From Anaerocolumna sedimenticola (GTDB lineage Bacteria; Bacillota; Clostridia; Lachnospirales; Lachnospiraceae), in NCBI RefSeq assembly GCF_009931695.1, contig NZ_CP048000.1, positions 2,001,501 through 2,065,500 on the forward strand: a DNA stretch of 64,000 nt. Reading direction: 5' to 3'. The notes beneath the pieces are model-generated. The model worked only from the letters and a program-made list of their open reading frames with translations, ran no database searches and was not told where the DNA came from. This document shows positions 2,712 to 58,287 of this stretch, piece after piece (position 1 is the first letter of the stretch; every line of letters begins with the position of its first letter). Both the position numbers and the translations under genes were made by a program.

Positions 2712-2721
2712 GAGGCAAGTG

Positions 2722-3609: not shown

Positions 3610-3621
3610 TGGGTGATATAT

Positions 3622-5427: not shown

Positions 5428-5745
5428 AGTTAATGATGTTTAATTCTGCATACAGGCTTTAAGAGAATATGTAAAACCGTTATTGTTCACGCCACTGAAA
5501 AAAGCAGCAGTTTCGTGAACAATAACACGTTTTTCGAAACACACAAAACGAGGAGACAGCGTTTCTATGCTGCAATTCTCCGGTTTTCTGTGACAATACA
5601 CACAAAAAAACACGTGACGTTGTTGCCTGTGAACAGTGACAAAAACCCAGTCATTTTATGCATAGTTGGAAAAATTTTCTTGATTTTATTAGCGGTTAAT
5701 TGTATACTCAACTTATAGTCCGTTTTTGTAAACGCTGTAAGCACT
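5428..5745. other. Intergenic region without a credible gene; inverted repeats
   Basis: About 320 bases between the oxidoreductase and the first repeat module. It holds a perfect 13-bp inverted repeat (5479-5491 and 5514-5526) and several weaker palindromes. The short frames here lack ribosome-binding sites and family features. Confidence 0.5.
5479..5526. repeat. Perfect 13-bp inverted repeat with 22-nt loop
   Basis: GTTATTGTTCACG (5479-5491) is matched by CGTGAACAATAAC (5514-5526). There is no T-run on either side, so it is not a standard terminator. It lies between an operon end and an IS91-type element and could be an element end or an operator. Confidence 0.6.
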
Positions 5746-5806
5746 ACTTGCCGATAGGCAAGTTTTTTATTTATTAGGAAAGTTCTCCTCCGGAGAACCT
5801 GTGTAT
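5746..5806 (+). repeat. Partial copy of the multi-hairpin repeat (left of the IS91-like element)
   Basis: ACTTGCC-GATA-GGCAAGT with a T6 run (a good terminator) is followed by TATTTATTAGGAAAGTTCTCC and a second hairpin, GTTCTCC-TCC-GGAGAAC. The order terminator, TAT..NTAGGAAAGTTC, hairpin matches the larger repeat loci at 25075-25341 and 50688-50996. Confidence 0.6.
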
Positions 5807-5811
5807 TAAAT

Positions 5812-5832
5812 ATGCCCGCTAAAAGCGGGCAT
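5812..5832. terminator. Strong hairpin at the 3' end of the IS91-like transcript
   Basis: ATGCCCGCT (5812-5820) and AGCGGGCAT (5824-5832) form a perfect 9-bp stem, 18 bases beyond the stop codon of the 59-aa minus-strand ORF. It may be a terminator for the minus transcript or the hairpin of the IS terminus (IS91 elements carry a hairpin near the terIS end). Confidence 0.55.
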
Positions 5833-5850
5833 AGGAAACAGACGATATTG

Positions 5851-6030
5851 CTAGAAGATATAAAAACCTTCTTCAAATTCGTCCTCATCAAGGTCCTCAT
5901 CCTCGGTAAGAAAATAATGCATGTCGAGCAGATCAGAATCAGTCATGTTCCGAACAAGCTTAGCCGTCATTCCTTCTGGAGGATTTTTGATATAGTTTTG
6001 TCTGAGTTCCTCTAGTTGTTTTGGATCCAT
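5851..6030 (-). CDS. Small acidic protein of 59 aa downstream of the IS91-like transposase
   Basis: A 59-aa frame on the minus strand, starting at ATG 6030 after a good GGGAGG site eight bases upstream. It begins MDPKQLEELRQNYIKNPPEG and ends in a strongly acidic run (TEDEDLDEDEFEEGFYIF). It lies 55 bases after the transposase in the same direction, so it is probably cotranscribed. I recognise no named domain. Its clean ribosome-binding site and position suggest a real accessory gene of the element, for example a transposition modulator or a DNA mimic, but this is inference. Confidence 0.65.
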   Translation of the reverse strand: MDPKQLEELRQNYIKNPPEGMTAKLVRNMTDSDLLDMHYFLTEDEDLDEDEFEEGFYIF

Positions 6031-6085
6031 TAGTAGTGCCTCCCATCTTAGAATGATTTAAGTATGGACCAGATGGGATAGAAAA

Positions 6086-7261
6086 TCAAGTAACTTTACC
6101 GCTGGAGCGGCAGTGAAACTTTGCCATTGCCCTTTCGTAAAGTTCAACTAGAGATACACGTTTGTGGTTAAAGTAGAGTTCCAGAAACTCCATGGTATGA
6201 TTGCACTTTGGACATTTTAAAGGATCGTAACCAAAGGACAAAAGAATAAGGTTACGCCATTTATTAAAATCCAGAATTATCTTGTGTTTGGATTTTGGTA
6301 CAGCTTTGGTAAGGCTTTTATCTAACTCGCGATGACGAGCATAAAGACCATAATAGCGCGTCATCTTAAAGTTCTTTTCGGGGATGTGTTGGATAAGAAG
6401 CTTAATAAAATCTAATACAGGAATTGTTTTCTGAACATAAGAATTATCCTCATGTTTGTTATAATGAAAAGTTACATTTTCACCATCGTAGGAGTCAATT
6501 CTTGAAGTAGCAATAACAGGACGACTAAGATAGCGACTGATATATTTTACAACGGTATTAGGGTCACAAAGATTTGGTCTTGCGTAAACATAGAAACCAT
6601 TTTTATCTTTCTTGTAGATGGCGGCCTTGGTTTTTTTGAAAGATGGACCGATATGCTTCTCCATTTCATTAAGAAGAGCGGTCTGAAAAGCTTTTCTAAA
6701 ATAAGAGTAATTAAAATGTTTTACAACACGCCAGAATCCATCATCGGAGAATCCACCTTCGGTAAGTAGACAGTGAATGTGAGGATTCCATTCAAGAGGA
6801 CGGCCAAAAGTATGTAGAACACAGACAAAACCGGGAACATAGTTCTTACTTTTGTTCATCTTGTGGAACAGTTCAAGAACAACGCTACGGACCGCCTGGA
6901 AAAGACAGTTAAGAAGGGAACGGTCTTCCAAAAAGAAGTGACGAAGTTCTTCATCAATAGTAAAAACACAGTGGCGGTGAGTGCAACGAATTAACTTAAA
7001 AGATATCGTGGTAGAACGATCGTTGGAGTATTTGCTGCCACAGGTAGGGCAAAACTTGGAGTGACAGCGGAAAGGAACGAATTTAAGTTCACCGCAATGG
7101 GAACAGCCGTACATGGCACCACCAAAGGAAGGATCGCCGCAGTTAATCATCTTTTCAATGTTTTCCATAACAACATGACGAGGATGAAGAGAATATTTAA
7201 TTATTTCATAATTGTCATTGAAAATCTTCTGTAATATATTCATATGACTATTATGAAACAA
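6086..7261 (-). CDS. IS91 family transposase (HUH, rolling-circle type)
   Basis: 391-aa transposase of the IS91/IS801 type. The N-terminus carries the zinc-binding region CSHCGELKFVPFRCHSKFCPTCGSKY (CxxC..C..CxxC). The metal-binding HUH motif is in EWNPHIHCLLTEGG (about residues 159-172). The catalytic tyrosine region is VVKYISRYLSRPVIA, with two tyrosines spaced as in Y2 enzymes. A further CPKC motif is near the C-terminus. Full length with no disruption. The enzyme would nick single-stranded ends and move the element by a rolling-circle mechanism. The start has no clear ribosome-binding site; M7 (base 7243) is an alternative. Confidence 0.9.
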   Translation of the reverse strand: MFHNSHMNILQKIFNDNYEIIKYSLHPRHVVMENIEKMINCGDPSFGGAMYGCSHCGELKFVPFRCHSKFCPTCGSKYSNDRSTTISFKLIRCTHRHCVFTIDEELRHFFLEDRSLLNCLFQAVRSVVLELFHKMNKSKNYVPGFVCVLHTFGRPLEWNPHIHCLLTEGGFSDDGFWRVVKHFNYSYFRKAFQTALLNEMEKHIGPSFKKTKAAIYKKDKNGFYVYARPNLCDPNTVVKYISRYLSRPVIATSRIDSYDGENVTFHYNKHEDNSYVQKTIPVLDFIKLLIQHIPEKNFKMTRYYGLYARHRELDKSLTKAVPKSKHKIILDFNKWRNLILLSFGYDPLKCPKCNHTMEFLELYFNHKRVSLVELYERAMAKFHCRSSGKVT

Positions 7262-7288
7262 AATGACAAAAAAAGAAACCCCCAGATT

Positions 7289-7306
7289 CCCCTCATGAAT
7301 GAGGGG
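7289..7306. repeat. Perfect hairpin CCCCTCAT-GA-ATGAGGGG upstream of the transposase
   Basis: 8-bp stem with a two-base loop, 27 bases upstream of the transposase start; outer CCCC/GGGG blocks can extend it. It may be the origin-side structure of the element or a block against read-through. Confidence 0.55.
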
Positions 7307-7320
7307 CTAGGGGAGTTGAT

Positions 7321-7350
7321 GTGTCGAAGACACTTTTTTATGCAATAGGA
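7321..7350 (+). repeat. Partial copy of the multi-hairpin repeat (right of the IS91-like element)
   Basis: GTGTC-GAA-GACAC with a T6 run is followed by ATGCAATAGGA. The stretch TTTTTTATGCAATAGGA is identical to 25116-25132, the core of the large repeat locus upstream of the heparinase-like gene. The remaining 190 bases up to the next gene hold nothing I can name. Confidence 0.6.
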
Positions 7351-7538
7351 GCGTGTAAAGCGAAGCGGAAAGGTGTGGTTTGGAACTGGAGAAGACCCTA
7401 CCTGCCAGCATATGATAGAGAAGATGCGTATAAGCAGTGCGACTTAAGGAAGATAAACATTATCAAAACAAGGATGGAACCTTTTTAACATCAGTGAAAT
7501 ATATTGGAGGATAAAAGCAGAGAGAATCTGAATCAAAT

Positions 7539-8591
7539 ATGCCATTACAACAGTCCGGTATTTTTAATTCACCAGAAGAAACTTTAGATTTTTGTCCAGG
7601 TACTTTCTACATAGATATATGCCGTATTGGTAATGCGGATTCTTTTTTACTTTGGAAGAATACCGATTTTATGCTTGTAGATACCGGTAATTCTATAAAT
7701 GCAGCAGATATCATAGGTCTATTGATAAAAAGGCAGGTTACCCGTTTAAAGGCTTTGACGATTACACATTTTGACAGTGATCATATGGGGGCATATCTGT
7801 CAATTATTGATTACATGAATTCTATAAAACGGAGTTTAACCGCACAAACCATAGAACATATCTATGCAAGAAAATATACAGCAGCGCAATTAGATATAAT
7901 TCCAAAAGACCGGTATAAAAATTATGTTAAGTTTATTAATGGTATTTTAAGATATCTAAATCGTTATGAAGAAGAATTTGATTTAGAGGTTTTACCGGAA
8001 CCGGGTACTTTAGCTGCCAAAGCAGAAGATTTATTTGGTGCAGGTGCCGGGTTATGGATCTTTCCGTATAAAACTAATTTAAACAGTCATTTAAGTCTTG
8101 ATGATACGGTTCAAATCTGGTGGCTCAACCGATTTGACTCCTATCTGAAAGCGGGGGTATCGGCAAAAACTATGGCTGGGAATATAAATAATGATTCTCT
8201 TATTTTCAAAGTAATCTATAGTGATAAATCGGTTTTATTTCTAGGCGATATGGGTCAAAGCGGTTTAAATGATCTACTTCTTTATAATTCGTTTTATCTT
8301 AGAAGTGACATTATAAAAATAGCACATCATGGTCATAAACTCAGTTCACCAAAATACTTTATAGAAGAAGTCTGTCCTGTTATTTCTCTGGTCACTACAA
8401 CGCTTAAATCGGCTCCGGATAATGCTGCATTTGGTAACAGGCTGGAAGAACTTATCTCTGAGAACATCAATTTCGGTACAATCGTTTTCTCCGGCGATGT
8501 AAGAGGAGATTATTCGACAATAGCAATCCGATATGTTGAGCCTAAAATCTTTACAGCTAATACATCCATTATAGGTTATCGGCCGTGGTAG
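7539..8591 (+). CDS. Metallo-beta-lactamase-fold hydrolase (ComEC/Rec2-like)
   Basis: 350 aa. The metal-ligand signature THFDSDHMGA (about residues 86-95) is HxDxDH, as in stand-alone ComEC-like hydrolases. Other ligands are Asp in LVDTGNS, LGDMG and the His pair in KIAHHGHKLSS. There is no membrane segment. ATG 7539 is the only start after an upstream stop at 7512, but GGAGG is about 30 bases away, so initiation is uncertain and the true 5' end may have been lost to the adjacent IS insertion. Function is unknown; related proteins are nucleases or phosphodiesterases. Confidence 0.8.
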   Translation: MPLQQSGIFNSPEETLDFCPGTFYIDICRIGNADSFLLWKNTDFMLVDTGNSINAADIIGLLIKRQVTRLKALTITHFDSDHMGAYLSIIDYMNSIKRSLTAQTIEHIYARKYTAAQLDIIPKDRYKNYVKFINGILRYLNRYEEEFDLEVLPEPGTLAAKAEDLFGAGAGLWIFPYKTNLNSHLSLDDTVQIWWLNRFDSYLKAGVSAKTMAGNINNDSLIFKVIYSDKSVLFLGDMGQSGLNDLLLYNSFYLRSDIIKIAHHGHKLSSPKYFIEEVCPVISLVTTTLKSAPDNAAFGNRLEELISENINFGTIVFSGDVRGDYSTIAIRYVEPKIFTANTSIIGYRPW

Positions 8592-8661
8592 AAATGGGGT
8601 TACTACATTAAGTCGTATCTCAATTGAGTAATGTTTCATAATAATAAAGGAGGTATTTTTT

Positions 8662-9519
8662 ATGAGCAATCTATTTCCGAGAACTGAGGTAGCAGGAATT
8701 TCATTATCAAGGATGATAATGGGAACTAACTGGTTACTTGGCTTTAGCCATACCGGTGCAGCTGCGGATAAGATGATTACAAGCTGTTATGATACAAAGG
8801 AGAAGATGTATCCCATTCTGGAAGCTTATTTGGAATATGGCGTTGACACGATTATGGCACCCTTCGGGTTAAGCCAGACCCTGGAAGATGGGGTAAAGGA
8901 TGTGGAGCAGAAAACAGGGAAACCGATTATTAGGATCGACACTCCCTGTATTAATGTGGATGATACACCGGAGGGCCGAAGAGAAGCAGAAGAGGTAATC
9001 AAGGCTTGCGGGAAAAGGGGATCTAAAATATGCCTCATCCATCATTCAAGTGTTGAACAGCTGGTAAATAAGAATAAGGGTGTTATAGACAGGCTTTCCG
9101 ACTATACCAAAATGATACGGGATGCCGGGATGGTACCGGGGCTTTCTGCGCATATGCCGGAATTAATTACCTATTCGGATGAAAACGGTTATGATGTGGA
9201 AACCTACATCCAAATATATAACTGTATGGGTTTTCTTATGCAGGTCGAGGTGGAAACCGTTGCCCGAATCATACATAATGCCAAAAAGCCGGTAATGACC
9301 ATCAAACCTATGGCCGCCGGACGGGTAACGCCATTTGTAGGTTTTAATTTTGTATGGAATACCATTCGTGATTGTGATATGGTTACCGTCGGTGCTTTTT
9401 CTGCAGACGAAGTGCATGAAGATGTGGAGATATCCCTTGCTGCCTTGGAACGAAGACTTCCGGATACGGAAAGGCGCTCAAGCCCTGTAAATGATCAGGC
9501 CGCTTTCGGCAGATCATAA
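8662..9519 (+). CDS. Uncharacterised TIM-barrel-like protein
   Basis: 285 aa preceded by a strong AAAGGAGGT site. It is soluble and has the alternating strand/helix pattern of a TIM barrel, with GVDTIMAPFG, KICLIHHSS, GMVPGLSAHMPELITY, KPVMTIKPMAAGRVTPF and DMVTVGAFSADEV as successive strand ends. The general look recalls aldo-keto-reductase-like folds but I do not see a catalytic tetrad that I would trust. It lies 70 bases after the MBL-fold gene. I do not recognise the family with confidence. Confidence 0.65.
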   Translation: MSNLFPRTEVAGISLSRMIMGTNWLLGFSHTGAAADKMITSCYDTKEKMYPILEAYLEYGVDTIMAPFGLSQTLEDGVKDVEQKTGKPIIRIDTPCINVDDTPEGRREAEEVIKACGKRGSKICLIHHSSVEQLVNKNKGVIDRLSDYTKMIRDAGMVPGLSAHMPELITYSDENGYDVETYIQIYNCMGFLMQVEVETVARIIHNAKKPVMTIKPMAAGRVTPFVGFNFVWNTIRDCDMVTVGAFSADEVHEDVEISLAALERRLPDTERRSSPVNDQAAFGRS

Positions 9520-9546
9520 CAATAATTTCTTGGATGGGAGTAGGAT

Positions 9547-9615
9547 ATGCTGAAAGTAATCATAGCCGATGATGAAGATAAAATATGTCAGCTAATATAT
9601 AAACAGACCGTCCAG
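9547..9615 (+). pseudogene. Fragment: N-terminus of a YesN-type response regulator
   Basis: After GATGGGAGTAGGAT an ATG opens MLKVIIADDEDKICQLIYK, which is the receiver-domain start of YesN-like response regulators with the acidic DDE pocket. After about 20 residues the homology ends and the frame runs into unrelated DNA, stopping at the TAG around 9703. Only the extreme 5' end of the gene is left. Confidence 0.65.
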
Positions 9616-9620
9616 GCTGT

Positions 9621-9899
9621 GTTGGACTATTTGGAGCAAATGAGGGATCAAGTGTCGGTATTGGTAATGCAATTCAGGAATCAGGAGACACTATCGTTGG
9701 TGTAGGTTTCGATAAATCCGATACAATCCTGGAATTAATCAAAGGCGGATATATTATTCTTTGTGCAACGGCACAGAACCCTGATGTTATGGGTTATGAA
9801 GGCATGAAAGAAGCAGCGAAAGCTTTGGCAGGTGAAGATACCGGAGCGGACTATGTAGATACCGGAGTATCCGTAATTACCAAAGCAAGTTTGGAATAA
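9621..9899 (+). pseudogene. Fragment: C-terminus of a RbsB-type sugar-binding protein
   Basis: In a different frame from the regulator fragment, about 90 residues read GLFGANEGSSVGIGNAIQES, then DTIVGVGFDKSDTILELIKG, and GYIILCATAQNPDVMGYEGM, ending in a normal stop. This is the C-terminal lobe of a ribose/galactose-type periplasmic binding protein (Peripla_BP_4). There is no start codon or N-terminal lobe. Together with the regulator fragment it marks a deletion that joined two genes of a former sugar locus. Confidence 0.75.
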
Positions 9900-9952
9900 C
9901 AAAGATAGTAAGCAACTTAAGTAAAAATCAGATTTATTTAATATTACTAATT

Positions 9953-9997
9953 AAAAAGTTCCATATCAGCCGGTCATTTGCTGATACGGAACTTTTT
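9953..9997 (+). terminator. Rho-independent terminator
   Basis: AAAAAGTTCC and TATCAGC pair with GCTGATA and GGAACTTTTT, with one mismatch, giving a 17-bp stem followed by T residues. It ends the transcript of the degraded binding-protein gene. Confidence 0.85.
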
Positions 9998-10000
9998 GTA

Positions 10001-10156
10001 TTACAATGGCCTGTGCCGGTCAGTGTACTTGGTGCTGCTTTTGGCAGAAAGATTAACAGAAAATGAAATAATATGGCTGTGAATCGGTTATTTCAGGGTT
10101 TACTTATTGTAATTATGGTTATTTATATGTATAATTTTAAAAAATATATGCCGTGA
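10001..10156 (+). pseudogene. Fragment: probable C-terminus of a TauE/SafE-type permease
   Basis: The frame reads PVSVLGAAFGRKINRK, a TGA stop at 10064, then NNMAVNRLFQGLLIVIMVIY and a natural stop at 10154. The pattern of a glycine-rich loop, basic stretch and final hydrophobic helix matches the C-terminus of sulfite-exporter TauE/SafE family permeases. No start, no N-terminus. The assignment rests on pattern memory only. Confidence 0.45.
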
Positions 10157-10192
10157 TAAAAATAATGTGCAGGGTAAGTGAGGAAATATAAT

Positions 10193-11311
10193 ATGCCACC
10201 AATGAGTGTTTTGATAAAACCGGCTTCCGGTAATTGTAATATGAAATGTGATTACTGCTTTTACTGTGATGAACAGAATAAGAGAAGTATTTCATCATTT
10301 GGAATTATGAGCGACCATACATTAAAAAATATAATGCGTAAAACCATATTGCATTCAGAAGGTTTTTGCTCCATTGCATTTCAAGGAGGAGAGCCTACCC
10401 TGGCAGGTATTGATTTTTTCCGCAATATCACCCAGTATGAGAAGCATTATAACAGAAAGCATATAAGAGTAGAATATGCCCTGCAGACCAACGGATTAAA
10501 TATAAATGAAGAGTGGTGCCGCTTTTTTAAAGAAAATCATTTTCTCATTGGTTTATCAGTTGACGGAATTCAGGATATTCATGATAAATACCGTCATACA
10601 AAGTCAGGAAATACGACCTATGAACAGATTATAAGAGCTGCCGGGCTGTTGGACCAATATGGTGTGGATTATAATGTCCTGACAGTGGTACATGGGGAAG
10701 TGGCCGGACGTATCGATGAGATTTATGATTTTTATAAAAATAAAGGCTGGCATTACCAGCAGTACATAGCCTGTTTGGATCCTTTATATGAAAAACCGGG
10801 AAAGTATGAATATTCTTTACTTCCGGCGGAATATGGCAAGTTTTTGGTTAAATTGTTCGACCGATGGTTTTGTGATTTGGAGATGAATCAGCAGCCCTTT
10901 ATCAGGCAGTTTGAAAATTATATAGGCATACTTTTAGGCAGGATGGCAGAAGCCTGTGATCAGCGGGGAACATGCGGAATTCAATATGTAGTAGAAGCGG
11001 ACGGCAGTGTTTATCCTTGTGATTTTTATATGCTGGATGAATATAAACTAGGAAATATGAATGATACCACAATAGCTGTTATGGATGAAAAGAGGAAAGA
11101 AATAAGATTTATAGAAGAATCCTTTAAATTAACGCAGGAATGCAAGCAATGTGAATTTTATGGAATCTGCAGAGGCGGCTGCCAAAGAAGCAGATTGAAA
11201 ACTGATAATGAAATGTATAAAAATTATCTGTGTGAGGGATATAAAGAATTTTTTGAAAAATGTCTCCCCAAGATGGTACAGATAGCAGATATGATAAAAA
11301 AAAGTAATTAG
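10193..11311 (+). CDS. Anaerobic sulfatase-maturase-like radical SAM/SPASM enzyme
   Basis: 372 aa starting MPPMSVLIKPASGNCNMKCD. The radical SAM cluster motif CNMKCDYC (CxxxCxxC) is near residue 14. FQGGEPTL follows the first strand. The C-terminal SPASM region has CGIQYVVEADGSVYPC, then CKQCEFYGICRGGC, for two auxiliary 4Fe-4S clusters. Family members turn an active-site Cys or Ser of sulfatases into formylglycine without oxygen. I chose ATG 10193 (AGGA eight bases upstream; families begin MPP) over GTG 10178. No sulfatase gene is in the window, so the target is elsewhere or different. Confidence 0.88.
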   Translation: MPPMSVLIKPASGNCNMKCDYCFYCDEQNKRSISSFGIMSDHTLKNIMRKTILHSEGFCSIAFQGGEPTLAGIDFFRNITQYEKHYNRKHIRVEYALQTNGLNINEEWCRFFKENHFLIGLSVDGIQDIHDKYRHTKSGNTTYEQIIRAAGLLDQYGVDYNVLTVVHGEVAGRIDEIYDFYKNKGWHYQQYIACLDPLYEKPGKYEYSLLPAEYGKFLVKLFDRWFCDLEMNQQPFIRQFENYIGILLGRMAEACDQRGTCGIQYVVEADGSVYPCDFYMLDEYKLGNMNDTTIAVMDEKRKEIRFIEESFKLTQECKQCEFYGICRGGCQRSRLKTDNEMYKNYLCEGYKEFFEKCLPKMVQIADMIKKSN

Positions 11312-42772: not shown

Positions 42773-43717
42773 ATGGAGGTACAGACAACTAAAAAAGGCA
42801 GGAAAGAAATTCTTTTTCCCGTTTCAGGAAAAATTTTATCAGGGACCGGTATTTATATCTGATGATTCTTCCGGGAATCGTACTGCTGATATTATTTCGT
42901 TACCTGCCAATGGGGGGTTGATTATTGCATTTAAGGATTACTCATTTAAGAAAGGTATTCTGGGCAGCAGCTGGGCCGGATTGGAAAATTTCAAATTTAT
43001 TTTCAATAATTCGGACTTTTATACCGTAGTAAAAATACACTTGGGATTAATATCCTGAAATTACTTTTCTCTTTTCCGGCACCAATATTTTTTGCGTTGT
43101 TAATTAATGAAATAAAGGGAAAGAAACTTAAAAAGTGTATCCAGACATCAATCTATCTTCCTTATTTCGTTTCCTGGGTTGTATTCGGAGGAATTGTAAT
43201 TCAATTCTTAAATCCGGGAACAGGTATCATAAATCAACTTATCGGGTTTTTCGGAGGGGAACCTATTGCATTTATGCAGGAAGGAAAGTATTTTAAAGGA
43301 ATTGTGGTATTAAGTGATATTTGGAAAAGTGCCGGCTGGGGAACCATTATGTATTTATCCGCACTCACTTCTATAGACCAGGAGATCTATGAGGCGGCCA
43401 AAATAGACGGTGCCGGCCGTCTTGCAATTATCCGCCACATATCCCTGCCCGGAATATCGGAAACCATCGTTGTATTATTACTTTTACAGATCGGTGCCAT
43501 GATGGATGTAGGTTTTGAACAAATATACGTATTATGTAAACCTATCTTATACGGAGTAGGTGACGTTATCAGTACCTATGTATACCGGGTGGGAGTCGGC
43601 AATGCACAATTTTCTATTACAGCGGCCATCGGATTGTTCCAGTCCATAATAGGCCTGATTCTTATCATGATATCCAATATGGTATGTAAGAAATTATTTG
43701 ATAAGAGTTTGTGGTAG
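42773..43717 (+). CDS. ABC transporter permease, LplB family (three frameshifts)
   Basis: About 315 aa when read across three minus-one frameshifts: at 42859-42861 (restores IYILMILPGIVLLILF), in the G6 run 42912-42917 (restores YLPMGGLIIAFKDYSF) and in the A5 run 43031-43035 (restores VVKNTLGINILKLLFSFPAP). ATG 42773 has a perfect AAAGGAGGT. EAA motif YEAAKIDGAGRLAIIRHISLP. It forms a transporter with the next two genes. All three breaks are in or near homopolymers. Confidence 0.87.
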
Positions 43718-48489: not shown

Positions 48490-48606
48490 ATTGTTTTTAA
48501 ATATCCGTAATGGTAAAATTAAGAAATATAAGGAAATACCGATTGTTTTATAGTAAAAAGAAAAATAGTCACATAGCTGAATGAATTGTCGGTGAAAGGG
48601 CATTTT

Positions 48607-49290
48607 ATGAGATTATTAATGATCGAAGATGATGAAGAATTATGTGAAGCAGTGTCAGTCCATATAAAAAAAGAGAGTTATGAATTAGATATCTGCCATA
48701 ATGGAGATGAGGTGTCCTATTATCTTAACGGGTCGGCTTACGATGTGATTATTCTGGACCGGATGCTGCCGGGGGTGGACGGACTGACTATATTAGAGAA
48801 TATAAGGAAAAAGGGGAATACAACCCCGGTGATTATGGTAACCGCCATGAACGGTATAAATGACAGAATAGACGGATTGGACGGAGGCGCAGACGATTAT
48901 CTGGCAAAGCCTTTTGAAGTTCAGGAATTAATGGCGAGAATCCGGGCACTTTTAAGACGGCCCAGAAAGATAGAAGATCTAACTGTTCTTAAATTTATGA
49001 ATGTCGAATTAAATACCAATACATATGTAGCAGCTTGCGGTGATAAGAGTCTTTCATTATCAAAAAGGGAAGGGGCATTACTTGAATTTTTTCTCCTGAA
49101 CAAAGAACAGATATTAACAAGGGAACAGATTCTTGGCAGAGTATGGGGACCGGATTCCTTTGTAGAAGACGGTAATATTGATAACTATATATTTTTTCTG
49201 AGGAGAAGGCTGAAAGCCCTTGATGCGAAAGTGAGTATCAAAACAATACACGGTATTGGTTATCGAATGGAGAGAAAAGAAAATGCTTAA
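48607..49290 (+). CDS. OmpR/PhoB-family response regulator
   Basis: 227 aa. Receiver domain with acidic pocket (MIEDDEEL), phospho-Asp in VIILDRMLPGVDGL (about residue 51) and Lys in YLAKPFE; C-terminal winged helix with NIDNYIFFLRRRLKALDAKV. ATG 48607 follows GAAAGGG; the TTG at 48586 is too far from any site. It overlaps the kinase gene by eight bases. It probably controls the transport block downstream. Confidence 0.92.
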   Translation: MRLLMIEDDEELCEAVSVHIKKESYELDICHNGDEVSYYLNGSAYDVIILDRMLPGVDGLTILENIRKKGNTTPVIMVTAMNGINDRIDGLDGGADDYLAKPFEVQELMARIRALLRRPRKIEDLTVLKFMNVELNTNTYVAACGDKSLSLSKREGALLEFFLLNKEQILTREQILGRVWGPDSFVEDGNIDNYIFFLRRRLKALDAKVSIKTIHGIGYRMERKENA

Positions 49291-50578
49291 TTCCATAAAA
49301 AACAGGCTAATCTTATTATATACCTGCTCCACAGGACTTATTTTAACAGCGGTAATTATTTTTGTAGCAGTAATCACCAATGAACAGTTACAAAGAAGTC
49401 GAATGGAGTCCTTTCGGAATAATTATATTACCATAAATCAAAATGTACATATGAGTCAGGAAATCAGCAACTTATGGATGGCGGAGATGGAAACCAGCAA
49501 TCATTTAATTATCCATATTGAAGATAATGGGACCCCTTTTTTATTTAAGGGTTCCTGGCAGACGCCCACCAAACGGGAAGTACTGGTTGATAAAATAAAA
49601 GAACTTGCACTTAAGGATAATATCAATACCAATATCCGGCCCGTTTCCCTGAATGAAGTACAGAGTAAGGTATATGAAATAAGAGGCAATAAAAACGACC
49701 GGTACCTTGGGGAGGTCTTTATTGTTCCAATAGACAGAGGATTTCGAAGTGTTGCAGCACTCCAGTATATATCAGGAAATGAGGCTTCTGTTTTAGAACA
49801 AAGGCTTTTATTGGTTTTCCTGGATTTATTGGGAATCACTGCGTTATTTTTTGTAAGCAGATTTATGGTAAGTAAGTCCTTAAAGCCGGTGGAAGAAAGC
49901 AGGAGGCGTCAGACTGAATTTATAGCAGCGGCTTCTCATGAACTAAAATCACCCTGGCAGTGATTCGGGCAAATGCTTCCGCATTAATTGTGGAACCAGA
50001 GAGGGCGGAGCATTTTACAAAAGGAATTGATAAGGAATGTAAACGTCTGGCAGCTTTGATTGAAGACATGCTGTTATTAGCTTCTGTGGACGCAAAAAGC
50101 TGGAAAATTAAGAAAGAAATACTGGACATGGATACTCTGCTGCTTGAAGTTTATGATCTGTTTTATCCATTCTGCAAGGAGCAGGGGAAAGAACTTAAAC
50201 TTAAGGTACAGGATGATATACTTCCGAAAGCAGAGGGGATGGAGAACGGATCAAACAGATACTGGCTGTCCTTATTGATAATGCGGTAACTTATACGGTG
50301 GAAAGAGATACCATCCTGCTTCGCGGTCACTGTAAGAAAAACCGTTTATGGCTTGAGGTGGAAGATCACGGACCGGGTATACCGGAGGATAAAAAGAAAG
50401 AAATTTTCGAAAGATTCTACCGGGAAGATAAATCCAGAAAGGATAAAACCCATTTCGGACTGGGACTTAGTATAGCCAAAGAGCTTACTGTGCTGCACGG
50501 GGGAGCATAGAGGTGAAAGATACGGACGGCGGAGGAGCAACCTTTAGTATCTCATTTCCCATATATACCAAAAACTAA
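49283..50578 (+). CDS. Sensor histidine kinase (three frameshifts)
   Basis: About 432 aa when read across three minus-one frameshifts. It has two membrane helices (about 7-30 and 170-190) around a short extracellular loop, the H-box AAASHELKSPLAVIRANAS (restored by an extra C at 49952-49954), the N-box region ILAVLIDNAVTYT (restored by a G at 50235-50238) and G-boxes DHGPGIPEDKK and FGLGLSIAKELTVLHGGSIE (restored near 50499-50505). ATG 49283 overlaps the regulator gene. Together they form a two-component system. Confidence 0.87.
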
Positions 50579-50996: not shown

Positions 50997-51077
50997 ATTG
51001 TATAAGGATTCTTAAAGATTTTTTAGAGATTTGCCTGTTAAGTTTATTATAGTAATATGAAAAGTGGAGGAATAGTA

Positions 51078-53346
51078 ATGAGGAGAAAGATAACCGTATT
51101 TTTTCTGCTCCTGACATTGGTAATAACCTATTTGCCAGGCTGCAGTAAGGAAAACCGAAAGGAAGCCGGACAGCCAGTGACCGGTGCCCAAAGCGGGCAA
51201 ATTGAAAAGGAAAATAAACCGGATAAATCAAAAGAGAAGACAATGGGAAGGTATATGGAAAAAGAGGTAACATTACCGGAATTGTCATCCGGTGAAGTTA
51301 TTATTAAAATCCTGGAAAATGCGGATAAGCAGATAGAAGTATATACTTTAAAGCATAGTGATGAACCGAAATATTTCTGTTATCAGTTACAAGAGGATAT
51401 GACCTGGAAGTCTGATACACCCGGATGGTTAAATGACGGTTCGGCCGGAAAAAATAACTATGCGGCGGATATCTGTTTAGGGAGGGACGGAAATTATTAT
51501 GCGTCTTTTATAGATTATGGTGAGAATACCGTTAAATCCTTTATCATAAGGTCGGAGGACGGAAAAAAAAAGGCAAAGAAATTAAAAATTCCATACCTGG
51601 AGAAAGAAACACATACCATAGAGAATTATCATTATTACCCCAGTATTGAGAAAATGGGAATATTAAAGAATGGAAACCTGGTATTATATGACACGTGGGA
51701 TACCGGCTCTTTACATATATATTCTGAAAAGGAAGATCAATTGGATAAACTTTCAATTGGGGAGGAGCAGAATTTCATAACCTCTGATGAGGATATTATT
51801 ACGGTAAACGGGGACGGTACCGGCGTCATGTTCTATGATACGGCCACAGGGAAAGCAGAAAGAACTATAGAATTTAATAATACGGGAAGTGCCAACGCCT
51901 ATGCCTTAAAAGATGACGGCACTCTGTTATTAGGCAATTCCGGCGGAATACACCGCCTCCGGAATAACGGTACCCTATGGGAAACCGTGGTAGATGGTTC
52001 CCTCAATTCCATGAGTATGCCCTCCCTTCAGTTTAATGGGCTGTTTGTAATGGAAGGAGAGGAGGAAGAGTATTATGCGGTATATACCAATAATGACGGG
52101 GATATGAACTAAAACACTATGTATTTGATGATAAAGTAGCTTCGGTACCGGAAAAAGAAATCACCGTATATTCCTTGAAAGAAAATAAAACTATAAGGCA
52201 GGCAATTTCCCTTTATCAGGCGGAAAATTCCGACACAAAAGTAAACTATGTGGTTGCTATGGGGAAGAGGAGGGAAATATCTCAGATTACATCCGTGCAC
52301 TTAATACGGAATTATTAGCCGGAAACGGTGCCGATGTATTGGTACTGGATGGATTGCCGGTGGATTCCTATATAGAAAAGGGAGTGCTGTCAGATATAAC
52401 GGATATCATAAATCCCTTGGAAGAAGCAGGAAAAGTGCTTTCCAATATAACGGATTATTATCATAAGGACGGGAAAGTTTATGAAATGCCCCTCCGGTTT
52501 TCCATTCCTGTTATTGCAGGAAAAAAAGAAGCCATTAAAGCCGCAGATAATACCGGTAATATTGTAAAATACATAGAGCAGGCCAATATACCCTACTGTG
52601 AATCAACCAGCTACCAGGCGCTGCTAAGTGATTATCTGGCATTGTATTCCGGGGAAATATTCATAAATGGCAAACTGAATGAGGAGAATTTTACTCTGTT
52701 TTTAAAAAATATAAAAATAATAGCCGACAATATAAAGGCAGAAGAAAATGATGTGAATCCAATAAACTATTCGAAACCATCCCGAATGTTTTTTGACAAC
52801 CTGTTCTCAGGTAATGTTGTGTCTCTGGGGAAAAAAGTTGCCACTTCCACGGAACAGGTCAAAAACATAATGGATACCATGTTGCTGTTTGAAGTATTAA
52901 AAGACAAAGATTTTGAATACAAATCCATCAATCAGATGTATATACCAGGCAGTGTTGTTGGCCTTAACAGCAAAAGCAGGGAAAATGATATTGCAAAAAA
53001 ATTTATCGGCTTTTTGTTTGAGGAAAAGGTTCAGAATACCAATCTTTATGATGGATTTCCGGTAAACAGCGGTTCCATAAAGAAGTGGGCCGCCGAGGAA
53101 AACACCGATCTTATGATTGGGATCAGTGATGCCGATGGAAATCAGGTATCTGCCGAATGGCCAGAAAAGGAAGAGCGGGAAGCCTTTTTAAATACAGTTT
53201 TGGAGGTTAAGATACCAATTGAGATAGATCCGATCTTGATTAATATGATCGTAGAGGAAGCCGTGCCGTATCTTAAAGGTGAGACCGGAGAGGGCCAGGT
53301 AGTGGCGGCGGTCAAAGCGAAAGTAAATACTTATCTGGCGGAATAG
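51078..53346 (+). CDS. Lipoprotein with beta-propeller-like N-terminus and solute-binding C-terminus (two frameshifts)
   Basis: About 756 aa when read across two frameshifts (G4 runs at 52098-52101 and 52261-52264). ATG 51078 follows TGGAGGAA. Signal LVITYLPGCSK with lipobox Cys about 23. Residues about 80-350 carry repeated blade-like pieces (AADICLGRDGNYYASFIDYG, GILKNGNLVLYDTWDTGSLH, YALKDDGTLLLGNSGGIHRL) suggestive of a beta-propeller. Residues about 360-756 resemble an extracellular solute-binding protein (TIRQAISLYQAENSDTKVNY ... GADVLVLDGLPVDSYIEKGV). This fusion is unlike the other binding proteins in the window. Operon with two permeases. Confidence 0.8.
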
Positions 53347-53354
53347 TAAAAATT

Positions 53355-54215
53355 ATGAAAAGGATTAAAAAAAGGAAAAAAGGGGAGGCAGGAAAGGCCT
53401 GGATTTTTTTGCTTCCAAGTTTAACAGGGGTGACCGTATTTGTATTACTTCCGTTTATGGATGTTATAAGACGATCCTTTTATGAAGCTATGAGCGGTAA
53501 GTTTGTAGGAATGGATAACTATAAACTGGTTTTTCATAATGAGGCTTTTTTGCTGGCGGTAAAAAATACGGGACGTTTTTTAATTACCTGTATTCCGTTA
53601 CTGATGATAATCTCTTTGATTTTATCCCTGCTTTTATATAACCAGAGAAAATACGGCGGCTATTTTAAGACATCATTTTTATTTCCTATGGCAATACCGG
53701 TGGCTTCCATGGTATTACTCTGGCGGTTGTATTTCCACGAAAATGGTCTGCTCAATGTTTTACTTGCGCATATGGGAAAAGAAAAGATAGATTTTATGAA
53801 TACGGATCATGCCTTTTGGGTGTTAATTTTTACTTACCTATGGAAAAATACAGGGTACGATATGATTTTATGGCTGACCGGTTTAAACGGAATACCTGTA
53901 ATTCTATATGAGGCAGCCAGTGTGGATGGCGCCGGGACCTGGGCTAAATTCCGCTATATTACATTGCCAAGGCTTCGGACATCCGTATATATAATTGGAA
54001 TTCTGTCTTTTGTAAATTCTTTTAAGGTATTTAGAGAGGCTTACCTGATTTCGGGAGATTATCCACAGGAAAGTATTTATATGCTGCAGCATTTATTTAA
54101 CAATTGGTTTGTCTCATTGGATATTCAGAAAATGTGTGCTGCGGCAGTTCTGTGTATATTTTTGTTTGTTATTATCATGTTAGTATTTAAGAAACTTGAT
54201 ATGGAAGAGGATTAA
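53355..54215 (+). CDS. ABC transporter permease, MalF/UgpA type
   Basis: 286 aa, six membrane segments; starts eight bases after the binding-protein stop. EAA motif YEAASVDGAGTWAKFRYITLP. It has a very basic N-terminus (MKRIKKRKKGEAGKAW). Works with the MalG-type permease after a 98-base gap. Confidence 0.9.
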   Translation: MKRIKKRKKGEAGKAWIFLLPSLTGVTVFVLLPFMDVIRRSFYEAMSGKFVGMDNYKLVFHNEAFLLAVKNTGRFLITCIPLLMIISLILSLLLYNQRKYGGYFKTSFLFPMAIPVASMVLLWRLYFHENGLLNVLLAHMGKEKIDFMNTDHAFWVLIFTYLWKNTGYDMILWLTGLNGIPVILYEAASVDGAGTWAKFRYITLPRLRTSVYIIGILSFVNSFKVFREAYLISGDYPQESIYMLQHLFNNWFVSLDIQKMCAAAVLCIFLFVIIMLVFKKLDMEED

Positions 54216-54313: not shown

Positions 54314-55162
54314 ATGAAAATTAAATTGGGAGTAAAAACCTGTCTGTTGTTTATCCTTACCCTGTTTATATGGGTGCCATTGTGGATGTTATTTACCGGG
54401 TCTTTTATGGGAGGGGATGAATTATATAAATACATATGGTCCGTATTAAACCAAAGGGAAAGTATGGCCTCCTGGACGGGTTTTCCCAGGTACCCTACAT
54501 TGCGGCATTACGTGGAATTACTACTGGATTCACCTGAATTTTTTGTTATGTTCTGGAATTCCTGTATTCAGGTAATACCGGTGCTTCTGGGGCAGATAGG
54601 AATCGCGGTGCCGGCTGCCTGGGCTTTTGCCAGATTTGAATTTAAGGGAAAGAAACTTCTGTTTTTTATTTACATGATTCTTATGGTGCTGCCCTTTCAG
54701 GTCACGATGGTATCCAGTTATCTGGTATTATACCGGTTGGGGTTTGTGGATACCCATCTGGCCTTAATCCTCCCTAATATTTTTTCTACGTTTCCTGTAT
54801 TTATTATGGTTAAGTTTTTTAAAGAAGTACCTAAGTCACTGATTGAAGCGGCAAAACTTGACGGTGCCGGTGAATTTATTATATTTACACGGATCGGGAT
54901 ACCCATTGGTTCCCCCGGTATTCTTTCCATCATAACATTAGGGTTTTTAGAATATTGGAATGCCATTGAGCAGCCGCTTACTTTCCTGGTCAGAAGAAAG
55001 GAACTCTGGCCTTTGCCGCTTTATTTGCCTGATATTTCATCGGATAATGCAGGAGCAGCCTTTGGGGCATCTGTTATTATGATGCTTCCGGCATTGTTAT
55101 TGTTTCTGTACGGACAGAAGTATCTGGAACAGGGTATCGCAGCCTCTGGTTTAAAAGAATAA
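54314..55162 (+). CDS. ABC transporter permease, MalG/UgpE type
   Basis: 282 aa, six membrane segments. EAA motif IEAAKLDGAGEFIIFTRIGIP. ACTGGAG precedes ATG. The C-terminal end (YLEQGIAASGLKE) lacks the usual GxxxGAVKG tail of the other MalG-like proteins in this window. Confidence 0.9.
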   Translation: MKIKLGVKTCLLFILTLFIWVPLWMLFTGSFMGGDELYKYIWSVLNQRESMASWTGFPRYPTLRHYVELLLDSPEFFVMFWNSCIQVIPVLLGQIGIAVPAAWAFARFEFKGKKLLFFIYMILMVLPFQVTMVSSYLVLYRLGFVDTHLALILPNIFSTFPVFIMVKFFKEVPKSLIEAAKLDGAGEFIIFTRIGIPIGSPGILSIITLGFLEYWNAIEQPLTFLVRRKELWPLPLYLPDISSDNAGAAFGASVIMMLPALLLFLYGQKYLEQGIAASGLKE

Positions 55163-55181: not shown

Positions 55182-57224
55182 ATGGAAAATAAATTAAGGA
55201 GACTATTATTCATATTTTTTATACTAATGGCATTTTTTACAGTTGTATCCAGAGCAGCAGCCTCTGTAATGGTTGCCAGGGTAGAAGTGACTGGGGCGAA
55301 AGAAGGGGAGTTGTCTTATGAGATTTCAGGGACAGGGACAGTAAAAGAAAATGCACAAAAATACATAACCTTATCCGATGGGCTGAAAATCGGAAAGGTT
55401 TCCATAAAGACGGGGCAGCAGCTGGAAAAAGGAGATTTACTGTTCCAATATGATTTAACGAGTTTGCTTAAGAAAAAATCCTCCCTGGAAAATGAATTAA
55501 CAAAATTGCAGCTGCAATATGACAAAACAGGATTAACCGGTGAGGAAGGGGACGGTTTATCCGAAGTTAAAGCAGCACAAATGGCTAAAGAAAATGCCGA
55601 AGAGGATTTAAAAGCAGCCGAACGCGTTTTGGCAGATATAAAGGAGAATACAAAAAAAGAGAAAGAAAAGGAATTTAAGGAGGCTTCTTTAGCGTGGGAA
55701 GATTTAGAAATATCAAAGGAAGAAGCCAAAAAGGAAACTGAAAGGGCAGTTACTGATGCCAAAAGGGAACTGTCGGAATTAAATAAACCACAGCAAAACC
55801 TGATGGAAAAACTGGAAGAATATAAAGAAGCGGTAATAAGTAAGAAAGAAAAAAATATAGAAGATGTCTTATATGAAATCTATGATTTTTATTATAAAGG
55901 GAAATATGAAGAACATCTGGCTGAAAAAAGTGAAACGAATGAAAAATTAAAAAGAGCCAAAGAAGATCTGAAAGATATTAAAAAGAAATGGGACACAGCC
56001 ATCAATGAAGATGATAAGGATTCGGACGAGGAAGCTGTTAGAAAAGCTTATGAACAACAGTTATTATCCAAAAAAGAAGAAATAAAAAATGCGGACCGGG
56101 CGGTAGAGGATGCCAAAGATTCTCTTTTGCGGCTATCGGAAAAGGATGATGAACTGAACGGCGCTATCAATAATTACAGAGAAGATTTGGAGGAAAATGA
56201 TAGAAACAATATGGGTAAAGCCTATGCCGCATTATACCAATTCCTTTATGATACGCTGGAAGTGAATGAAGAGAAAATCAGTACGGCAGAAACGAAATTA
56301 AGCCGCGCCAAAGAAGATGAAGCTCAGGTAAATAAGCAGTGGGATTCTAAATTAAAGGATGCCTTTCATAAAAAAGAAGAGCTGAATCATGTTTTAAAAA
56401 ATATAGAAAATGGAACCTATGATTATAAGGAAGAATTAAAAGAAGGAAAAAAAGCGGTAACGGATGCGAAGAGGGCTCTTATGAATGCGGAACTTTCCTT
56501 GGCGGAGGCAAAGGAAACCCGGCAGTTAGGGGAAGAAAACAAATACATTCAGCAAAAATCCATAGAAATTGATCAAAGTATACTTTTATTGGATTTGAAT
56601 GGGAAACAGGCTGAAATAGACGAGCTGCAAAGGATTATCACAGATAAGGGAAAAGTAACCGCACCGGTGGCAGGAGTGGTTACAAAAAATGATCTGGAAC
56701 AGGGCGGTATCTTAACAGGCCAGGAAAAACTGGTTCTGGCAACCGGAGGTTATGAACTTTCCATGAATGCCGACAAAGAGGATATGAAACGGTTCGCGGT
56801 TGGAGATGAACTGCAAATAGATACCGGTACGGATAATGATAAGATAACCTCCAGGATTGAGAATATCGGTTTACCGGATCAAGACGGTAAGGTTAAATTC
56901 TCTGCACTTTTACCGGAAGGAAATTATAGTGTGGGAGGAAGCCTGGATTATGAAATAAGTAAGGAGTCCCAGGCCTATCCAAGATGTATTCCGGTTCAGG
57001 GACTTCGTGAGGATTCCAAAGGTACTTATATTCTTCTTGTGAAAGAAAAGGACAGTGTACTTGGTAAAAAAGATACGGCATTCCGGTTAGATATAACCGT
57101 AATATCGCAGGATACCAAATCTGCGGCGATTGATGCTTCTTTGTCGGACGAGGATCAGATTATTACCGGCAGTAATAAAAACATCTCAGAAGGAGATCGA
57201 GTAAGGATTTATGAAATGGAATAA
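55182..57224 (+). CDS. HlyD/MacA-like periplasmic adaptor with long coiled coil
   Basis: 680 aa. N-terminal membrane helix (about 6-25). Split lipoyl/barrel domains: GTGTVKENAQKYITLSDGLK and GQQLEKGDLLFQYD first, KVTAPVAGVVTKNDLEQGGI second. Between them a very long charged coiled coil (about residues 95-470) rich in Lys/Glu with heptads. C-terminal barrel and membrane-proximal regions follow (DELQIDTGTDNDKITSRIEN). This is the adaptor of RND/MacAB-type efflux systems, used in Gram-positives with ABC exporters. It follows importer-type permeases by 19 bases and overlaps the next gene by 14. About 370 coiled-coil residues is longer than most. Confidence 0.85.
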   Translation: MENKLRRLLFIFFILMAFFTVVSRAAASVMVARVEVTGAKEGELSYEISGTGTVKENAQKYITLSDGLKIGKVSIKTGQQLEKGDLLFQYDLTSLLKKKSSLENELTKLQLQYDKTGLTGEEGDGLSEVKAAQMAKENAEEDLKAAERVLADIKENTKKEKEKEFKEASLAWEDLEISKEEAKKETERAVTDAKRELSELNKPQQNLMEKLEEYKEAVISKKEKNIEDVLYEIYDFYYKGKYEEHLAEKSETNEKLKRAKEDLKDIKKKWDTAINEDDKDSDEEAVRKAYEQQLLSKKEEIKNADRAVEDAKDSLLRLSEKDDELNGAINNYREDLEENDRNNMGKAYAALYQFLYDTLEVNEEKISTAETKLSRAKEDEAQVNKQWDSKLKDAFHKKEELNHVLKNIENGTYDYKEELKEGKKAVTDAKRALMNAELSLAEAKETRQLGEENKYIQQKSIEIDQSILLLDLNGKQAEIDELQRIITDKGKVTAPVAGVVTKNDLEQGGILTGQEKLVLATGGYELSMNADKEDMKRFAVGDELQIDTGTDNDKITSRIENIGLPDQDGKVKFSALLPEGNYSVGGSLDYEISKESQAYPRCIPVQGLREDSKGTYILLVKEKDSVLGKKDTAFRLDITVISQDTKSAAIDASLSDEDQIITGSNKNISEGDRVRIYEME

Positions 57225-58287
57225 ATACAGGGTACTGCTTGTCTTGTTAATTGCAATAACTGTTTGGTTTACTGCTTCAAAAATAAAAGAAGCTTCCTTT
57301 ATAAAAAATGAGTATTCTACCGTAAGTGTCCGGTACGGTACGGGCGGAGTCAATGAACAGATAATAAGTAATGCACTTAAAAATGAAAAACTTCAGGGTA
57401 ATTCCGACATTCCTGAGGTAACGGCCTGGTTTTGGATAAAGGAAGCCGAAATAAAAAATAGGAATTTTAACCGGACTCAAAAGGTATCCGTGGTTATTAC
57501 ATCCGGAAATATGGCTTTAACGACCCCTATGAAGTTAGTAAGGGGTAATTACGTATACCGGCAGGATAAGGTGGGATGTGTTATTGATACAAACACGGCA
57601 TATCTTTTATTCGGCACGGAATTTGCAGTTGGCAATACGGTAACTTACGACAAAAAAGACTACGTGATCCGAGGTGTGGTCAGAGCAGATTACCCGGTTT
57701 TTTTGATCCAGGGGTCCGGTGATAAAATGGAATATTCCAATTTGGAGTTGGGGTTTATGGATAAAGAAAGGGGAGAAACACTTGCAGAAGAGTTTTTGTT
57801 GGGAAATGGACCCACCGGAAATTATGTGATTATAGATGGATATTTTTACGGAAGAATCATTTATTCCTTAATAAGTCTACCGGTTTGGCTTTTTTTCTTT
57901 TTTGGCGGTTATGAGATTTTCAAGATTTTTTATAGTTATATGAATAAACAAAAGCCAGGGCATTTTATCCTTTATAGCAGTATTCTGTTGCTTATTCTGG
58001 CGGGTTACGGCTTTATTCTTTTCCGTATTACAGGCAATCCCCTTTATATACCTGAAAAACTGATTCCGACCAAATGGTCGGACTTTGATTATTGGTCTAA
58101 ACAGTATCAGTTAATTCAGAATCAGATACTAAAGATACGGTATTTAACTCCTAATCCTAAGGATGTGTATTTGGTGGACAAAATATCAAATCTATTGCTT
58201 AACACAATTGTTATGTTTCTTTTATATATGTTTATTATTACGGATATACATATTCTTAGGTTAAAAGGTAAATCCAAAAATAATTAA
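57211..58287 (+). CDS. MacB/FtsX-like membrane protein without ATPase
   Basis: 358 aa. A membrane helix (about 6-24), a MacB-like extracellular core (MALTTPMKLVRGNYVYRQDK ... GTEFAVGNTVTYDKKDYVIR, like the MacB_PCD pattern of a stated 'lock, gap, pairs'), then three more helices (about 216-236, 250-270, 330-350). So it has the N-terminal helix, core and three helices of a MacB-type permease. It overlaps the adaptor gene by 14 bases, so the two are translationally coupled. No ATPase gene follows. The family assignment is by pattern only. Confidence 0.6.
   Translation: MKWNKYRVLLVLLIAITVWFTASKIKEASFIKNEYSTVSVRYGTGGVNEQIISNALKNEKLQGNSDIPEVTAWFWIKEAEIKNRNFNRTQKVSVVITSGNMALTTPMKLVRGNYVYRQDKVGCVIDTNTAYLLFGTEFAVGNTVTYDKKDYVIRGVVRADYPVFLIQGSGDKMEYSNLELGFMDKERGETLAEEFLLGNGPTGNYVIIDGYFYGRIIYSLISLPVWLFFFFGGYEIFKIFYSYMNKQKPGHFILYSSILLLILAGYGFILFRITGNPLYIPEKLIPTKWSDFDYWSKQYQLIQNQILKIRYLTPNPKDVYLVDKISNLLLNTIVMFLLYMFIITDIHILRLKGKSKNN

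Follow-up and report, generated by a model that had tools for sequence, protein, structure and literature searches.

What does a MacB-like membrane protein do when it has no ATPase of its own? The question is posed by a gene pair of Anaerocolumna sedimenticola (Lachnospiraceae) in a window of 64,000 nucleotides (positions 2001501-2065500 of the 5.5-Mb single-contig genome; below, the window means this whole stretch). There, the gene for a MacA-type adaptor overlaps that for a MacB/YknZ-like protein, here called MacBL. An earlier sequence-only reading had singled out this pair and had overlooked two permease genes of the MalF and MalG type (PermF and PermG) and a binding-protein gene, which lie upstream on the same strand. 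Solute-binding lipoprotein, PermF, PermG, adaptor and MacBL form a cassette, often with a two-component system nearby. We read it, with a probability of roughly 0.6, as a composite ATP-binding cassette (ABC) system: an importer that would run on a shared MalK-type ATPase, joined by an unpowered wall module derived from MacA and MacB.

Linkage of the gene pair to an importer

Loci were collected via MacBL alone, and 88 stretches were translated in six frames and searched with profiles of each part. This yielded 77 non-identical loci with a MacBL match, 60 of which have at least 7 kb of upstream sequence. The 60-locus count excludes a second cassette of the same genome (L120), the MacBL match of which fell short of the E-value threshold, as well as 10 loci that identical protein ends mark as duplicates and 17 with under 7 kb of upstream sequence. 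PermF was present in 58 of the 60 loci, PermG in 58, the adaptor in 59 and the binding protein in 57; all four occurred together in 56, and both permeases with the adaptor in 58. Gene order varies by group while the genes stay together, three loci (L092, L094 and L154) having the order adaptor-MacBL-PermF-PermG. Apart from the cassette and the two-component system, no gene family recurred in more than four loci when 34 stretches were clustered all against all.

The permeases of the window have the importer domain BPD_transp_1 (39.8 and 40.9 bits, cut-off 26.4), and a simple pattern finds the EAA-type loop, the docking site for MalK-type ATPases, in 56 of 65 PermF and 57 of 66 PermG sequences. 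Cassette permeases score 364-474 bits, whereas other MalF/G-type permeases in the same stretches reach at most 160; the divergent pair of L120 scores 337 and 260 bits. At the level of sequence, these comparisons establish the parts of the cassette, their linkage and the EAA loops.

Pairwise distances among the parts of 64 cassettes correlate at 0.76-0.92 (MacBL-adaptor 0.87, MacBL-PermF 0.78). The MacBL-PermF value was reached by none of 500 label shuffles (maximum 0.15), a control that leaves shared species history in. The parts thus appear to share much of their history, with shared species history contributing. Nine cassettes come from four genomes that hold two or three each. For four of these, the cassettes of the window, L031, L044 and L047, all four parts have the same nearest relative, which is not the paralogue in the same genome.

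Not counting the genome itself, MacBL matches occur in 11 of the 14 further genus members and in 28 of 97 relatives. The carriers found are mostly Lachnospiraceae and Oscillospiraceae, and several belong to genera whose names point to the gut. The second intact cassette, L120, lies at ~3356388-3364437 (positions 2389-10438 of G000:C1:3354000-3373000); its adaptor is short, at 471 aa, and its binding protein has 526 aa.

Features of the cassette and its surroundings in the window (positions are those of the window)
Feature	Position	Strand	Remark
OmpR/PhoB-type response regulator	48586..49290	+	Pfam
Sensor histidine kinase	49256..50572	+	Three frame changes; single ORFs in relatives
Solute-binding lipoprotein	51057..53346	+	Frame changes near 52100 and 52265
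MalF-type permease (PermF)	53355..54215	+	BPD_transp_1; EAA loop ~53910-53969
MalG-type permease (PermG)	54314..55162	+	BPD_transp_1; EAA loop ~54845-54904
Adaptor, MacA/AcrA/BesA-type membrane fusion protein, 680 aa	55182..57224	+	Long multi-helix insert, ~residues 92-487
Stop/start overlap of adaptor and MacBL genes, 14 bases	57211..57224	+	Read from the open reading frames (ORFs)
MacBL, MacB/YknZ-like four-helix protein, 358 aa	57211..58287	+	Without ATPase domain or coupling motif
IPTKWSDFDYW motif, predicted extracytoplasmic loop of MacBL between transmembrane helices TM3 and TM4	58063..58095	+	

MacBL has kept the MacB body and lost the coupling motif

Pfam recognizes MacB_PCD in residues 12-162 of MacBL, at 32.4 bits and thus above its cut-off of 27, and finds no ABC ATPase domain in the protein, in line with the absence of Walker motifs noted from the sequence. 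A structure model built from 47 sequences (mean predicted local distance difference test score, pLDDT, 93.9; predicted template-modelling score, pTM, 0.88) places a helix at residues 5-34, then an extracytoplasmic core, then helices at 210-242, 249-274 and 316-356. Its top match is the extracellular domain of YknZ (5f9q; Z 14.9, root-mean-square deviation (rmsd) 3.1, 163 aligned), followed by MacB 3ftj (Z 14.2, rmsd 4.8, 191 aligned), MacB 5gko_A (Z 13.9, rmsd 8.4, 263 aligned) and Spr0695 (5xu1_M; Z 13.8, rmsd 5.2, 200 aligned). Model and matches agree with the sequence-only reading that a MacB-type core sits between the first helix and three others, which is the layout of a type VII ABC transporter.

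Near-invariant residues of MacBL fall in the extracytoplasmic core and in the TM3-TM4 loop, where the family form is IPTxWSDFxFW. P, W, S, D and F of this motif are each conserved in at least 90% of 25 aligned proteins, a set not chosen by the motif; the motif also seeded one scan of relatives, and its invariance in a set partly chosen by it is to that extent built in. By pattern, the motif is absent from the MacBL of the divergent L120.

According to a review of MacB, the major coupling helix sits between TM2 and TM3 (PMC5985334). At this place, after TM2, all 26 ordinary YknZ/MacB relatives carry REIGIRxALG (ERTREIGIRxALGA or near variants). The motif was seen in 26 of 27 control rows, the sole exception (L150) being itself a cassette member. 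It was found at the post-TM2 place in none of 83 MacBL family members, namely the 77 MacBL loci and six more (L120, L154-L157 and L160); L109 and L119 have partial versions, and pattern matches in L059 and L089 fall in extracytoplasmic parts. The MacBL model leaves ~6 residues between TM2 and TM3. A simple hydropathy scan shows only the first and last membrane helices in the MacBLs of L059, L155, L156 and L157, from which the TM2-TM3 pair seems to be absent altogether. The TM2-TM3 coupling element of type VII ABC transporters was thus not found in the MacBL family. The sequences thus establish the loss of coupling: MacBL keeps the MacB body and no longer has what a MacB-type ATPase would need to drive it.

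A phylum-wide profile search gave a match in 130 of 398 genomes, including that of A. sedimenticola, with matches that were not fetched left unclassified. Among the weak matches followed up (L129-L153), 24 of 25 had the coupling motif, L150 again being the exception. Cassettes turned up in this search in the genomes G474, G411, G239, G237 and G299.

A MalK-type ATPase as the likely motor

If MacBL is not driven by a MacB-type ATPase, which ATPase serves the cassette? In 11 of the 83 loci the cassette itself includes a MalK-like ATPase (L047, L090, L091, L092, L094, L100, where a contig end cuts it, L104, L119, L155, L157 and L160), a lower bound because some cassettes run off their contigs. 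These ATPases are ~48-65% identical to the stand-alone MalK-type protein of A. sedimenticola, and in the six examined with Pfam OB_MalK or TOBE_2 domains were recognized, which establishes their type. A YknY-type ATPase fused to MacBL or directly adjoining it was found in none of the 83 loci. The nearest same-strand ATPases of YknY size lie 3.0 kb (L155, 256 aa) and 5.7 kb (L113, 289 aa) away, that of L155 beyond the MalK-type gene in an apparent amino-acid importer. As a control, an ATPase ORF of 229-287 codons adjoins the MacB gene in 20 of 24 ordinary YknZ/MacB matches from the same profile search.

Several nearby candidates were left out of the count. The pattern match in L036 (373 aa) had no MalK match, the larger ABC proteins near L044, L075 and L095 are only ~25% like MalK, and that of L114 is a peptidase-C39 exporter. 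A 471-aa pattern match 5.3 kb away in L052 was left unclassified and uncounted. In L091, the ATPase of which is counted, a 625-aa ORF was considered as a permease-ATPase fusion and rejected, as its first ~290 residues seem to be read out of frame, upstream of where the ATPase begins.

For the cassette of the window, MalK-type ATPase candidates lie only elsewhere in the genome. The genome has one OB_MalK match, a stand-alone MsmX/MalK-type ORF at ~1658831-1659943; the nearest permease pair lies 4.6 kb, or three ORFs, away. We consider it very probable that the cassette is powered by an ATPase of the MalK type. The earlier suggestion of an orphan MacB/LolD-type ATPase as the driver finds no support; such a partner is unlikely because the coupling (docking) motif is gone and the in-cassette ATPases are MalK-like.

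The adaptor and its helical insert

Against the NCBIfam model TIGR01730 (RND_mfp) the adaptor scores 49.3 bits, below the 94.9 cut-off. Its structure model (pLDDT 87.3, pTM only 0.43) does have the expected architecture of barrel, lipoyl halves, helical insert and membrane-proximal domain, and matches BesA, AcrA and MacA over residues ~30-680, with large rmsd (BesA 4kkt_C: Z 14.7, rmsd 14.0, 237 aligned; MacA 5nik_D: Z 12.8, rmsd 29.0, 321 aligned). The MacA-like and MacB-like identities first proposed from the sequence are borne out by the fold matches of the two proteins and by the MacB_PCD match of MacBL.

The adaptor had also been credited with a coiled coil of about 370 residues. The residue count agrees with a long helical part, which the model divides into several helices (92-118, 126-220, 223-237, 242-273, 284-338, 341-356, 363-409 and 416-487) rather than one two-helix coil. 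By arithmetic from the helix lengths, the longest outward run, of ~129 residues, would measure at most ~19 nm if straight. Between the lipoyl halves, the insert spans 400 residues in the window and 109-470 in 42 adaptors including it (median 281); with length varying this widely, a long insert is not a family trait. The adaptor may cross the thick Gram-positive wall.

The ORF coordinates confirm the 14-base overlap of adaptor stop and MacBL start. An ATG at exactly this overlap recurs in 14 of 72 adaptor/MacBL pairs, all of them from closer relatives, and because of this recurrence the overlap is more than chance. A possible start at a 4-base overlap occurs in 21 of the 72 pairs.

The binding protein

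The binding-protein fragments of the window have no binding-protein match in Pfam. An intact copy in a relative (L065:3835-6114) encodes a 759-aa lipoprotein with the importer binding-protein domain SBP_bac_1 at residues 371-656 (38.6 bits against 26). A profile of 22 binding proteins has its best match in CbpC of Clostridium thermocellum (7x0o, E-value 1.9e-24). Binding proteins of the cassette often carry an N-terminal extra region of ~330 residues, which gave only weak beta-propeller matches and is perhaps a beta-propeller.

A proposed composite importer and its alternatives

The core of the cassette would be a type I carbohydrate-type importer made up of the solute-binding lipoprotein, PermF and PermG. 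Its power would come from a MalK/MsmX-type ATPase, in most cases a shared one encoded at another site. An adaptor of the MacA type and a MacB-derived protein would have joined this core as a lasting module, with MacBL as an unpowered base under an adaptor oligomer. Adaptor and MacBL core could together enclose a vestibule in the inner zone of the wall, guiding or gating the passage of ligand to the binding protein and permeases, and the two-component system may tune expression to the ligand or to the state of the envelope. We infer, from linkage rather than from contacts, both that module and importer touch and that the module directs or gates uptake within the wall zone. We give even odds to importer and module being one physical complex, and hold that the net direction of the cassette is probably import. 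Only tentatively do we go further and propose an undescribed composite class, in which a tripartite unit of the MacA-MacB type would be merged with a MalFGK2-type importer into one machine with a single MalK-type ATPase. The MacB half would serve as an unpowered scaffold, and the adaptor, its inserts ranging from 109 to 470 residues, as a conduit of varying length in the wall zone through which ligand is brought inward. Such delivery, if true, would reverse the usual efflux direction of adaptor tubes.

Several observations weigh against the composite reading. Nine PermF and nine PermG sequences miss the simple EAA pattern. One locus (L101, Paenibacillus monticola) has MacBL alone, a 316-aa protein at 10004-10954, with no adaptor or permeases nearby; another (L106) lacks permeases nearby, and two (L072 and L105) have no binding protein in view. 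Five of the nine paralogous cassettes (L043, L050, L052, L058 and L120) have mixed nearest relatives. At least one other MalK-like ATPase (43% identical) is encoded in the genome, adjoining its own permease pair (L122), so the MalK-type partner is not unique. Nor does genome-wide presence of OB_MalK discriminate, an OB_MalK ATPase being found in 25 of 28 relatives with a MacBL match and in 30 of 34 without (the 34 searched being part of 69); it is present in all 16 good-quality match-bearing relatives, and the three misses are genomes 63-78% complete.

The ligand and the state of this particular copy add to these points. In one study the CbpC pocket was blocked and no tested sugar was bound (PMC9601137), in conflict with sub-micromolar values tabulated for CbpC in a review (PMC11212667). 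Because these reports conflict, a sugar ligand is not assured, and the cassette may not necessarily carry a sugar. Compared with L065, the kinase gene of the window changes frame three times and the binding-protein gene twice, the pieces on either side being 52-89% identical; PermF, PermG, adaptor and MacBL each have an unbroken reading frame. Assembly errors may account for the five frame changes, or else recent mutations. A further hint that the assembly contains frame errors comes from L121:12971-14346, where two adjacent ORFs after an FtsE/FtsX-like pair have, by eye, the look of a single wall-hydrolase partner split in two.

The strongest rival to the composite importer is a sensing module, in which adaptor and MacBL would read the ligand or the state of the wall and signal to the linked kinase, the importer acting as effector. 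BceB-type permeases, which work with BceS, provide the proposed model, and the Foldseek matches of the MacBL model include BceAB and BceAB-S chains. In 44 of the 60 loci, both a kinase and a response regulator occur within 12 kb (these profiles are generic, and some matches may therefore be unrelated), and the extracytoplasmic parts diverge fast, with mean identities of 21-25% against 48-50% for the permeases. However, the kinase/regulator pair is not in view within 12 kb in the other 16 loci, and BceB itself is ATP-driven; we regard a sensing module as unlikely. Still less likely are two independent machines under one control, the importer and an adaptor/MacBL efflux unit powered in trans by some ATPase. 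MacB-type pumps with adaptors are described as efflux systems (PMC5985334, PMC5768738), and the genome has at least 150 ABC ATPase matches. Against such a unit speak the coupling motif, in place in none of the 83 family members, the lack of a YknY-size ATPase directly beside the MacBL gene, and the constancy with which the adaptor/MacBL pair stays with the permeases.

Could MacBL simply be the remnant of a MacB pump that lost its ATPase? The frame-broken kinase and binding-protein genes upstream would fit decay, but the MacBL frame is intact and its motifs are kept, and matches recur in 11 of 14 genus genomes and 28 of 97 relatives. A canonical MacB operon is separately present in the same genome (L159). 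The sequence-only reading had named as the sign of a broken copy that relatives should carry an ordinary, ATPase-bearing MacB immediately downstream; none was found. Conservation and the intact frame rule out a broken copy, leaving a decaying pump a negligible chance.

Relation to known systems

The cassette resembles several known systems in part. YknWXYZ of Bacillus and Spr0693-0694-0695 of Streptococcus pneumoniae likewise have an adaptor and a four-helix MacB-type protein of the YknZ/Spr0695 fold as separate genes; unlike them, the cassette has no adjoining ATPase gene of the YknY/Spr0694 type, has lost the coupling motif, and adds two MalF/G-type permeases and a binding protein. With MacAB-TolC it shares the adaptor fold and the membrane and extracytoplasmic fold of MacB, whereas MacBL is without the ATPase domain and coupling motif. 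The MsmX-powered carbohydrate importers of Bacillota have the same binding lipoprotein, MalF/G-type permeases with EAA loops and, mostly, no ATPase gene in the operon. The cassette differs from these in its adaptor and MacBL, in the two-component system often nearby and in a binding protein that often has the ~330-residue N-terminal extra region. A stand-alone, shared MalK-type ATPase encoded elsewhere is the known MsmX arrangement (PMC7658222). The CbpC system of C. thermocellum, with an operon of four genes, Cthe_2125-2128 (PMC8303734), supplies the nearest solved relative of the cassette's binding domain, although the solved CbpC chain leaves no room for the extra region.

In the mostly open literature that we searched on the cassette, ATPase-less MacB-type proteins, MsmX and CbpC, no description of the cassette was found; its parts are individually known, and their combination is not described there. 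The efflux and mechanotransmission systems in which adaptors and MacB-type cores are known have an ATPase of their own. The cassette suggests a use of the MacB fold that needs no ATP coupling and is a tractable case for the passage of ligands through the Gram-positive wall. It also calls for caution in annotating such genes as macrolide or drug efflux.

Neighbouring genes

Beside some cassettes, further ORFs were seen. Two binding-protein-like genes, or one after MacBL, occur in L085 and L154, and one after MacBL in L055, L056, L060, L061 and L156. An ORF following the second cassette (L120, 10681-11862) looks by eye like an SH3-NlpC/P60 wall hydrolase. In the window, a MalF-type permease ORF of another sugar operon (43097-43717) has a late start, giving 206 aa, and may be frame-broken.

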